From positions 682,001-746,000 of the forward strand of contig NZ_JAJTWT010000002.1 of the NCBI RefSeq assembly GCF_021353235.1: a stretch of DNA of 64,000 bases. Direction: 5' to 3'. Made by a program: the position numbers and the translations under genes. The notes beneath the pieces were generated by a model. That model did not search any database, was not told where the DNA came from, and saw nothing but the letters and a program-made list of their open reading frames with translations. Shown here piece after piece: positions 46,892 through 60,741 of this stretch (positions are counted from its first letter, which is position 1; each line of letters opens with the position of its first letter). The DNA is from Pelomonas caseinilytica (GTDB taxonomy: Bacteria > Pseudomonadota > Gammaproteobacteria > Burkholderiales > Burkholderiaceae_C).

Positions 46892-46976
46892 AAAGCCACC
46901 GAGGCACGCTGACACAGAGAAGCTCTGTGAACTCAATGCATTCCCTCTGTGTCTCTGTGCCTCTGTGGCTGTGTTG
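46892..46976. repeat. Inverted-repeat element, copy A
   Basis: Right arm CCCTCTGTGTCTCTGTGC...GGCTGTGTTG (46943-46976) pairs imperfectly with the left arm (46892-46923) around a 19-base loop. One of five related copies in the window. It fills the thiolase-fadB spacer; its left arm has diverged most of the five. Confidence 0.85.
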
Positions 46977-46987
46977 CTGGGCCCGGG

Positions 46988-49081
46988 TCAGGTGAAGCTC
47001 TTGCCTTCCGCCACGAGGCGGGCAAGCAAAGGCGCCGGCGTCCAGAACGCGGCATCGTCCATCGGGTTCTTCGCAAAGCGCTTCATCGCCTGCACGACGT
47101 TGAACAGGCCCACGGTGTCGGCATAGCACATCGGGCCGCCGCGCCACAGCGGGAAGCCGTAGCCGGTGAGGTAGACCATGTCCACGTCGGAGGCGCGCTG
47201 GGCGATGCCCTCCTCCAGCAGGTGGGCCGCTTCGTTGACCAGGGCGAACACGAGGCGGTGCACGATCTCCTCGTCGCTGATGTCGCGCGTCTTCGCGCCG
47301 ATGGCCTCGCGGTGCTTGGCCAGCATCTCGGCCACGACGGGCGACGGGATGGCGTCGCGCTTGCCGGGCTGGTAGTCGTACCAGCCCGCGCCGGTCTTCT
47401 GGCCGTAGCGGCCCAGCTCACACAGCCGGTCGGCGCTGGCCGAGTACTTCATGTGGGGCTTCTCGACGTAGCGGCGCTTGCGGATGGCCCAGCCGATGTC
47501 GTTGCCCGCCAGGTCGCCCATGCGGAAGGGGCCCATGGCGAAGCCGAACTTCTCGACGGCCTTGTCCACCTGCTGCGGGCTGCAGCCCTCGTCGAGCAGG
47601 AAGCCGGCCTGGCGGCTGTACTGCTCGATCATGCGGTTGCCGATGAAGCCGTCGCACACGCCCGAGACGACGGCCGTCTTCCTGATCTTCTTGCCAATGG
47701 CCATCACCGTGGACAGCACGTCCTTGGCGGTGGCCTTGCCGCGCACCACCTCCAGCAGCTTCATCACATTGGCCGGGCTGAAGAAGTGCATGCCCACCAC
47801 GTCCTGCGGGCGGGCGGTGAAGGAGGCGATCTTGTCGACGTCCAGCGTCGAGGTGTTGGAGGCCAGGATGGCGCCGGGCTTGGCGATGGCGTCGAGCTGC
47901 TTGAACACCGCCTCCTTGACGCCGATCTCCTCGAACACGGCCTCGATGATGAGGTCGCAGTCCTTGAGGTCGTCGTAGCTCAGCGTGGTGCTCAGCAGGG
48001 CCATGCGCTGGGCGTACTTGTCTTCCTTGAGCTTGCCCTTCTTGACCTGGGCCTCGTAGTTCTTGCGGATGGTGGCGACGCCGCGGTCCAGGGCCTCCTG
48101 CTTGGTCTCCAGGATGGTGACCGGCAGGCCGGCGTTGAGGAAGTTCATCGAGATGCCGCCGCCCATGGTGCCGGCGCCGATGACGCCCACCTTCTTGATG
48201 TCGCGCAGCGGCGTGTCCTCGGGCACGTCGGCGATCTTGCTGGCCGCGCGCTCGGCGAAGAAGGCATGGCGCAGGGCCTTGGATTCGGGCGTCATCATCA
48301 GCGCCGCGAAGCCTTCGCGTTCCGCGCGCAGGCCGTCCTCGAACTTCATCGTCACCGCGCCGGCCACGGCCTCCAGGCAACGCAGCGGCGCCGGGAAGTT
48401 CTTGCTCATGCCGCGCACCATGTTGCGCGCGAACTGGAAGTAAGCCTGGGCATCCGGGTGGCGGGCCTTGAGGTCGCGCACCTTGGGCAGCGGGCGTTTC
48501 TCGGACACCTCCTCCGCGAACTTGAGGGCACCGTCCATCAGGTCGCCTTCGACGATGCGGTCGAAGAGCTTCTGGCCGGGCACCTGGGCCAGCAGCTGGC
48601 TTTCCACCGGCTCGCCGCTGACGATCATGTTGAGCGCAGGCTCCACGCCCAGGGCGCGCGGCAGGCGCTGCGTGCCGCCCGCGCCAGGCAGCAGGCCGAG
48701 CTTGACCTCGGGCAGGGCGATCTTGGCGCCGGGCGCGGCGACGCGGTAGTGGCAGCCCAGGGCCAGCTCCAGGCCGCCGCCCATGCAGACGCTGTGGATG
48801 GCCGCGACCACGGGCTTGCTGCAGTTCTCGACGACGCCGATGAGGCTGAGCAGGTTGGGCTCGGCGAGGGCCTTGGGCGAGCCGAACTCCTTGATGTCGG
48901 CGCCGCCGGAGAAGGCCTTGCCGGCGCCGGTGAGGACCACGGCCGTGACGGCGGGATCATTCTCGGCACGCTCCACGCCGGCCGCGGCGGCGGCGCGGGT
49001 GGCCAAACCCAGGCCGTTGACCGGTGGGTTGTCGAGGGTGATCACGGCAACGCGGCCGCGAACTTCGTAATGGGCTGTCAT
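46988..49081 (-). CDS. fadB: Bifunctional enoyl-CoA hydratase / 3-hydroxyacyl-CoA dehydrogenase
   Basis: Multifunctional beta-oxidation protein of 697 residues. The N-terminal crotonase domain has [12 protein letters not shown] and [18 protein letters not shown] with [19 protein letters not shown]. The Rossmann domain has [20 protein letters not shown] (about 300-319), followed by [13 protein letters not shown] and [15 protein letters not shown] with the catalytic His. The C-terminal dehydrogenase domain is complete. A GTG six bases upstream exists; ATG 49081 has a GAGG at good spacing. First gene of the cluster, behind a TetR-type operator. Confidence 0.94.
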
Positions 49082-49132
49082 GGGCACGACCTCGGTTGGC
49101 GGGCCGCGCCGCGTCTCCTGCAGCCGGCCCGA

Positions 49133-49152
49133 AATAGAACGACCGTTCGATT
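49133..49152 (-). promoter_or_regulatory. TetR-type operator before the beta-oxidation cluster
   Basis: AAT-N3-AACG-AC-CGTT-N3-ATT: AACG/CGTT and AAT/ATT arms are symmetric around 49142/49143. AACG-N2-CGTT palindromes are common targets of TetR-family regulators of fatty-acid degradation in Proteobacteria. It lies about 52 bases before the fadB start, a good place for repression. No regulator gene is adjacent. Confidence 0.5.
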
Positions 49153-49229
49153 CTAGGCAGCCGCCCTGGCGCCGCCTTGTCCCGGCAGTGACAAGGCCGC
49201 TTCCCCGGCCTCACCGGTCTTGCAGCGCC

Positions 49230-59195: not shown

Positions 59196-59268
59196 GCCCG
59201 TGCACTTCGTCACATCCCGCCAGGAGCCGCCCGGACGCACGGTTACGGACCGCAGCAGCCCCGCCGCG

Positions 59269-59308
59269 GTGCGAACCGCACCGTTGGTGTACCGCAGCAC
59301 CGCGGTGC
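59269..59308. promoter_or_regulatory. Cluster of GCAC/GTGC inverted repeats upstream of urtA
   Basis: GTGCG-N3-CGCAC (59269-59281), GCACC-N3-GGTGT (59278-59290) and GCACCGCGGTGC (59297-59308) lie 100-140 bases before the predicted start. NtrC sites have GCAC and GTGC half-sites, but with wider spacing, so this is a candidate enhancer and not a clear NtrC box. Confidence 0.35.
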
Positions 59309-59364
59309 CGCACAAAAACGGGCCGGCGCGCCCGCGCTTGGGGGGGCGGTGCCGGCCGCGCCCC

Positions 59365-60594
59365 TCAGCCCGCCGGTGTGACGACGCCGTCGCAGGCGCC
59401 GAAGCCGATGCGGCGGAACCCTGGCTTGCAGGCCTGAGCCCGCAGGCCGAGTCGGTCGCCGTCCAGCAGGAAGCTGCGCTGCTCGCCGTTGGGCAGGGTG
59501 ATGGGCTGCTTGCCGCCCGCGGTCAGTTCGAGCAGCGAGCCCGCCTCCTCGGGCGCCGGGCCGCTGATGGTGCCCGTGCCCAGCAGGTCGCCGGGCTGGA
59601 GGTTGCAGCCGTTGCTGGCGTGGTGGGTCAGCATCTGCGCCAGCGACCAGTAGGCGTGGCGCAGGTTGGAGCGCGACAGGCGCACCGGCTCCGGCATGGC
59701 CGGCGTCTTGAGCCAGACCTCCATCTCGATGTCGTAGGCCGCCGCGGCGCGATGCCGGGGGGAGTCGAGGTAGGGCAGCGGCTGGGGGTCGCCCTCGGGC
59801 CGGGTGAAGGGGATGCGGAAGGGCTCCAGCGCGTCCATGGTGACGATCCAGGGCGAGATCGTCGTGCCGAAGTTCTTGGCAAGGAAGGGGCCCAGGGGCT
59901 GGTACTCCCAGGGCTGGATGTCGCGGGCCGACCAGTCGTTGAGCAGGGTCAAGCCGAAGGCGTGCTCGTCGGCCTCGTCGATGCCGAAGGGCTCGCCCAG
60001 CGCATTGCCGGGGCCGACGAAGAGGCCCAGCTCCAGCTCGCAGTCGATGCGGGCGCTGGGCTTGAACACGGGCACCTCGGCGTCGGGCGCCTTGACCTGG
60101 CCCCTGGGGCGGCGGATGGGCGTGCCGCTGACGACGATGGAGCTGCTGCGGCCGTGGTAGCCGATGGGCACCCACTGGTAGTTCGGCAGCAGCGGGTTGT
60201 CGGGACGGAAGAGCCTGCCGACGGCTCGGGCGTGGTGGATGCCCGTGTAGAAGTCGGTGTAGTCGCCGATGCGGCAGGGCAGCGTGAACTCGGCCTCGGC
60301 CTGCGGCACGAGGTCGATCTCCGGCGCGCCGGCCTTGAGGGTGTCGAAGAGGCGGTGGCGCAGCGCGCGGCGCTCCACGCCGGGCCGGGCCATCAGCGCG
60401 TTCAGGTCGTCGATGCCCCAGGCGGCGAGGTCGAGGATCCGGTCGCCGATGCCGACACCCACCCGCCAGGGCTCCAGCGAGCCGGCGCGCCGGAAACGGC
60501 AGAAGGGCAGGTTCTGCAGCGGGAAGTCGGTGGCTGGGTCGTTGGCCGAGGCGACCCAGGACAGGGCGGCGGGGTCGTGGGTATGGTCGAGCAT
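59365..60594 (-). CDS. fahA: Fumarylacetoacetase
   Basis: Last step of tyrosine/homogentisate breakdown: hydrolyses fumarylacetoacetate to fumarate and acetoacetate. The 409-residue protein has the N-terminal SH3-like domain and the FAH domain with DYTDFYTGIHHA, DCELELGLFVG, LLNDWSARDIQPWEYQPLGP and NLQPGDLLGTGTISGP, including the metal-binding acidic residues. Follows hmgA, separated by repeat copy E. Confidence 0.96.
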   Translation of the reverse strand: MLDHTHDPAALSWVASANDPATDFPLQNLPFCRFRRAGSLEPWRVGVGIGDRILDLAAWGIDDLNALMARPGVERRALRHRLFDTLKAGAPEIDLVPQAEAEFTLPCRIGDYTDFYTGIHHARAVGRLFRPDNPLLPNYQWVPIGYHGRSSSIVVSGTPIRRPRGQVKAPDAEVPVFKPSARIDCELELGLFVGPGNALGEPFGIDEADEHAFGLTLLNDWSARDIQPWEYQPLGPFLAKNFGTTISPWIVTMDALEPFRIPFTRPEGDPQPLPYLDSPRHRAAAAYDIEMEVWLKTPAMPEPVRLSRSNLRHAYWSLAQMLTHHASNGCNLQPGDLLGTGTISGPAPEEAGSLLELTAGGKQPITLPNGEQRSFLLDGDRLGLRAQACKPGFRRIGFGACDGVVTPAG

Positions 60595-60624
60595 GGTGTC
60601 GGGTGTTCAGCGTGCGATGCAGGG

Positions 60625-60741
60625 ACTCAGCCACAGAGGCACAGAGACACAGAGGCGGTGGGCCGGCGCAACGGCCCGTGTGCGATGGCCGGACCGTGGG
60701 TCTTGTGACCCGTTTCTCTGTGTCTCTGTGCCTCTGTGGCG
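60625..60741. repeat. Inverted-repeat element, copy E
   Basis: Left arm 60625-60655 (ACTCAGCCACAGAGGCACAG onward) and right arm 60711-60741 pair around a 55-base loop, the longest loop of the five copies. It fills most of the 165-base hmgA-fahA spacer. Confidence 0.9.

Follow-up and report, generated by a model that had tools for sequence, protein, structure and literature searches.

The window analysed here is a stretch of 64,000 nucleotides (nt) from Pelomonas caseinilytica (contig NZ_JAJTWT010000002.1, positions 682,001 to 746,000). It contains five inverted repeats with arms of 25-32 nt, in which CACAGAG units recur every 8 nt, and all five, read on the minus strand, separate minus-strand genes. 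Copy 1 (46889..46975, arms 46889-46919/46945-46975) lies in the spacer between an ECH/3HCDH fusion gene and a thiolase gene, both recognised by Pfam. Copy 2 (54076..54171, arms 54076-54107/54140-54171) separates urtD from urtE, copy 3 (56070..56165, arms 56070-56100/56135-56165) urtB from urtC, and copy 4 (57728..57821, arms 57728-57759/57790-57821) urtA from urtB. Copy 5 (60630..60740) is found between hmgA and fahA; its fold has 25 pairs, with the arms at approximately 60630-60654/60716-60740. For copies 1 to 4 the complementarity of the arms is 84%, 91%, 90% and 88%, respectively, and the left arm of copy 1 is degenerate. The first-pass annotation, made from the sequence alone, had described the five repeats at these places, each between two minus-strand genes and three of them in the urtA/B, urtB/C and urtD/E spacers, and we could confirm all of this.

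The urt names follow the earlier annotation and the gene order, and Pfam identifies ABC ATPases, permeases and a binding protein. All these genes are on the minus strand: urtA (substrate-binding protein, 57875..59128, PF13433), urtB (permease, 56173..57714, PF02653), urtC (permease, 55008..56054, PF02653), urtD (ABC ATPase, 54178..55011, PF00005 and PF12399) and urtE (ABC ATPase, 53356..54060, PF00005, with the search run on 53356-54138). The starts of urtE and urtC are the ATG codons after copies 2 and 3. The same strand carries fahA (fumarylacetoacetase, 59365..60594, PF01557 and PF09298) and hmgA (homogentisate 1,2-dioxygenase, 60760..62061, PF20510 and PF04209). At 55008-55011 urtC and urtD retain a 4-nt overlap without an insert, the only tight urt junction that no copy has entered.

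Folding of all five copies on the operon strand gives -46.6 to -80.6 kcal/mol (z -6.6 to -9.5). The upstream stop is 14-62 nt from the arm core and the next start follows 22-37 nt downstream, where the distances of 22 and 37 were computed and the remaining ones counted on the sequence. The arm motif has 12 matches in the window with at most 3 mismatches, compared with none in 100 dinucleotide shuffles. All are located at or after position 46945, i.e. the first 46 kb contain no copy, as had been pointed out before, yet this is unremarkable because the density elsewhere is about one copy per 33 kb (12 copies in the 400-kb stretch C1:1-400000). A scan of the window against Rfam found no family at the gathering score.

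Copies across the genome and their gene context

A search of the whole 5.98 Mb genome for the arm, as proposed in the first-pass annotation, gives 255 matches with at most 2 mismatches (128 forward and 127 reverse), compared with 8 and 19 for the reversed pattern. With at most 1 mismatch the numbers are 105 and 112, and 0 and 3 in the controls. We examined 839.6 kb of the genome, including the window; C1:1-400000 and C34:300001-475600 are continuous stretches and the remaining ones were picked for listed arms. This gave 45 copies, of which the fragment C34:312452 was dropped, leaving 44. Genes were called with a dicodon-based finder, for which the examined stretches served as training data, and short spurious open reading frames (ORFs) inside the elements were excluded from the counts. 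For loci of other genomes we used a composition-based gene finder, which agreed with the dicodon finder on 48 out of 48 window genes longer than 500 nt.

All 44 copies (5 in the window and 39 elsewhere) lie between called protein-coding genes and none in 23S rRNA. The neighbouring genes are co-directional for 39 copies, convergent for 4 and divergent for one, so the bias towards operon spacers suggested by the first-pass annotation is present. The co-directional excess has p = 2.5e-4 against non-element intergenic bases (64% co-directional, 18% convergent, 18% divergent) but is only marginal against gene-pair counts (p = 0.049). The deficit in divergent spacers has p = 0.002 against intergenic bases. 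In 35 of the 39 co-directional copies, 7-39 nt separate the upstream stop and the core. Among copies inspected in relatives, which were picked from the arm matches with at most 1 mismatch, 10 out of 14 are also co-directional.

The loop sequences are unlike between most copies. At C4:48367 and C23:475947, which belong to the main subfamily with a 64-nt core, the loop is reversed relative to the operon, and at C4:48367 the outer left end is oriented as usual, which would fit an inversion of the loop between the arms. In the relative G035 one family hairpin (L169:1663-2101) has an apparent unrelated repeat between its arms, a nested insertion.

One copy, missed by the first-pass annotation, is full-size and encloses a GxxExxY nuclease-like gene. 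It contains the single PF13366 match of the genome, located between the arms C23:270899-270921 and C23:271295-271317, and is flanked by genes which, from their sequences, we take to be livH- and livM-like.

Empty orthologous sites

All five window copies are absent in the congener G156, where the flanks are ~80-94% identical, and they are likewise absent wherever G030, G238 and other congeners were comparable. Copy 1 is missing in congener L163. At the site of copy 2, congeners L163 and L164 have no insert and overlapping reading frames; at the site of copy 3 the same two show an ATGA overlap, as do L163, L165 and L166 at the site of copy 5. At the site of copy 4, L163 and L164 have a different, hairpin-free spacer of ~135-150 nt. 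Five further short-copy sites compared with G030, G238 or G156 have no insert, and the full-size copy is absent from the orthologous junction of relatives. In total, 11 copies (10 short, 1 full-size) are absent at the orthologous junctions of relatives, and because of this the compared copies are, judged from these alignments, recent insertions. The many copies, their patchy spread and the empty sites agree with the mobile-repeat character proposed by the first-pass annotation. A search of G156 C28:680001-1080000 gave no further empty site with both flanks.

At five of the 11 sites (urtD|urtE, urtB|urtC, hmgA|fahA, C34:472879 and C5:15550) relatives have overlapping genes, with ATGA or GTGA at the overlap or with a start located within the upstream gene. 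Counted on the aligned sequences, the congener gap is 2-5 nt at C34:469159 and at livH|livM, ~18-35 nt at C5:16558 (where it is longer in G030) and C34:467657, and longer at the last two sites (~78 and 135-150 nt). In our genome the insert stands between a separate stop and a separate start of the flanking genes. The gap is at most 6 nt at 7 of the 11 empty sites, as we read the alignments. A preference for very tight junctions is not shown by this count (p = 0.087), because such gaps are already found in 39% of 496 co-directional pairs. The insert at urtB|urtC is bordered by ATGAA on each side, and the one at C34:469159 by a similar 9-10 nt. At the latter site (L063) the upstream gene lacks the stop of its relative and reads to the next TGA, beside the hairpin.

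GxxExxY loci in this and other genomes

The ORF of the full-size copy (L031) matches the GxxExxY family TIGR04256 with 147 bits (cut-off 35) and PF13366 with 146 bits (cut-off 22). The gene has about 120 codons with the PD-(D/E)XK residues intact, and D66, E76 and K78 are invariant in 56 out of 56 aligned GxxExxY proteins. A structural model resembles Cas4/restriction-like folds. GxxExxY is nuclease-like, with a predicted PD-(D/E)XK fold. A sequence search of the PDB with the GxxExxY profile found nothing convincing (best E 0.31), PHROGs and PADLOC gave weak matches only, and in a defence library there was a weak similarity to a Cas4 profile (E 0.006) and no strong match.

The short copies share their arms with the full-size copies L031 and L263. 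The latter surrounds the GxxExxY gene of a relative, and its arms are those of a short subfamily, down to the outer GCAACC; outer ends of this type are present in 8 of the 44 copies here. The loops do not show the short copies to be internal deletions of the L031 copy, since they generally fail to match its interior (1 of 42 at p<0.01 and 6 of 42 at p<0.05 for its right side).

PF13366 is present in 44 out of 300 genomes of the order. We analysed 30 order loci, including our own, of which 2 are cut by contig ends. Flanking inverted arms score at least 15 in 27 of the 28 uncut loci, and in the last one, with a score of 13, the arms are visible; none of 112 shifted controls reaches 15. The arms follow a unit grammar, with at least two, usually three, CRCNVAK units per arm, a few nt apart. 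In a scan of named genomes we took the best 80 of 586 relatives, and 75 of these loci are uncut. These best 80 come from Proteobacteria, Acidobacteria, Planctomycetes, Chloroflexi, Bacteroidetes, Verrucomicrobia, Nitrospirae, Cyanobacteria, two archaea and others. Inverted arms score at least 15 in 56 of the 75 (controls 1/413), and the CRCNVAK grammar is found in both arms of 58 (shifted controls 0/413). The arms of one locus resemble each other more than those of other loci, the own partner being the best match in 35 out of 85.

The elements are mostly inserted in sense. With the gene read as plus and both neighbours called, both neighbours are plus in 24 of 26 order loci and both minus in one, and for the named loci the numbers are 49 and 8 out of 65. 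Among the 28 uncut order loci several spacers recur, such as trpD|trpC (8 loci) and ribF|ileS (4 loci), names which we assigned from the protein sequences. The trpD|trpC elements (L074, L079, L081-L084, L095, L098) come from eight genomes of several families. In a tree of 30 proteins they fall in at least two separate supported clades, which implies more than one entry into this spacer. A single clade holds the four ribF|ileS proteins, of which two are short, and these elements may, from the tree, have been inherited.

Interpretation and comparison with known systems

In our judgement it is rather probable that the hairpins represent short and non-coding forms of a small mobile element, whose full-size form consists of inverted CRCNVAK arms around a GxxExxY gene. 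In this reading, such hairpin-armed elements form a widespread class that is apparently undescribed. A link between GxxExxY and the arms was not found in the literature searched, where most subscription papers and preprints are outside the coverage, and the arm sequences had no relevant literature match. From its genomic context GxxExxY is the probable mobility nuclease of these elements. It would recognise the iterated or cruciform arms and cut or nick the DNA, mobilising the element, and the short copies would move in trans or be relics. The element could live off read-through transcription of the host operon, with an mRNA stem that may be open to RNase III, by analogy with reports for 23S rRNA intervening sequences and Correia elements. 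In the urt operon, the insertions should weaken translational coupling because they separate gene pairs that overlap in relatives.

Several observations weigh against this reading. The grammar is missing in 17 of the 75 named loci, including one of the two archaeal loci (L244). The copies of our own genome show no covariation between the arms (p = 0.27), the arms being too alike for the test. In G035 convergent genes flank four out of the five short copies inspected. The loop orientation of short copies relative to the operon is mixed (21:17), which speaks against a fixed orientation. The compared empty sites show no clean target-site duplication, with filler and divergence outside urtB|urtC and C34:469159. 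The loops and the interior of the long copy are generally unmatched, and we know of no measured activity of a GxxExxY protein. The genomes G030 and G238 have 28 and 22 arm matches (at most 1 mismatch) but no GxxExxY gene. Finally, stem mismatches on the transcript strand of our own co-directional copies show no bias for G.U over A.C (36:32).

We consider it unlikely that the arms belong to an independent MITE-like repeat (MITE, miniature inverted-repeat transposable element) and GxxExxY a mere passenger with a function elsewhere, e.g. in defence. The many short copies without a gene, the two arm-rich genomes without GxxExxY and the weak Cas4 similarity would fit this, but the defence library gave no strong match, and these arms flank 58 of the 75 GxxExxY genes, which come from many phyla, an association too tight for a chance passenger.

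Host-selected regulatory hairpins, whose stems would set segment-specific mRNA stability or insulate genes in operons such as urt, are decidedly improbable. The strong folds, the location between operon genes and the single divergent copy among 44 speak for them, and the differential mRNA stability suggested by the first-pass annotation is plausible from the folds. However, the copies are absent at the same junctions of congeners, the loops differ between most copies, and the excess of G.U over A.C mismatches is missing in our own copies as well as in 83 GxxExxY loci (95:86). This test for selection on the RNA strand is negative, and we therefore claim no host function.

Repetitive extragenic palindromic (REP) repeats, spread by a REP-associated tyrosine transposase (RAYT, a Y1 transposase), a gene which the first-pass annotation had proposed to look for, are likewise short intergenic palindromes in many copies and the genome has three PF01797 matches, but this explanation is highly implausible as the arms here are longer, none lies within ~1.5 kb on either side of the three RAYT genes, and the arms enclose GxxExxY instead.

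GxxExxY, a widespread family of unknown role, here gains a genomic context that suggests a function, and dispersed intergenic hairpins are linked to a candidate mobility enzyme. The recent insertions that part gene pairs overlapping in relatives are a natural experiment on translational coupling.

Among known systems, MITEs such as Chunjie and Correia share the terminal inverted repeats and the many short, ORF-less, mostly intergenic copies, as described in the passages compared (PMC10969869). The same passages cite an insertion of Chunjie into an operon that was left undisturbed, and Correia RNA as cut by RNase III (PMC10969869). In contrast, the arms here consist of iterated 8-nt units, a short copy is mostly arm sequence, the long form carries a PD-(D/E)XK gene and not a known transposase, and there is no clear target duplication. 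In Geobacter, palindromic or heptad-repeat sequences are also present in many copies, largely between genes (PMC2700814, PMC2996986). The G. metallireducens families are, however, described there as putative regulatory elements, some of them within genes, and the passages compared mention no link to GxxExxY.

The closest parallel in organisation is the 23S rRNA intervening sequence (IVS) of Coxiella, which is reported to have heptameric and inverted repeats and a sense S23 ORF and to be excised by RNase III (PMC4990558). In the passages compared it is, like the elements here, small and patchily distributed, and its inverted arms, built of short iterated units, enclose one small sense ORF. The protein and the arm unit are different, and the IVS is found in 23S rRNA while the elements here are in operon spacers. 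The long copy of this genome holds PF13366 and not an S23 ORF; PF05635 (S23) has no match in this genome at E 0.001. The S23 protein is a four-helix bundle, in contrast to the nuclease-like GxxExxY. We found PF05635 in 56 out of 274 genomes of the class and took 30 loci (L103-L132), of which 6 are cut. Inverted arms score at least 14 in 22 of the 24 uncut loci (controls 1/120), mostly as tandem units of ~7 nt, e.g. AGTAGGG, TTCAGTG or AGTTCTG, and both neighbours, where called, run with the gene in 17 out of 21. The 23S rRNA IVS can now be seen alongside a larger group of small hairpin elements in sense orientation. As a tentative and wider proposal, for which the odds are somewhat against us, GxxExxY could be the mobility nuclease of undescribed, nearly pan-bacterial, selfish elements with hairpin arms, which enter gene junctions of operons in sense, S23/IVS could be a second branch, convergent or related, and the 23S rRNA IVS would then be a specialised case of a general mRNA-borne element.

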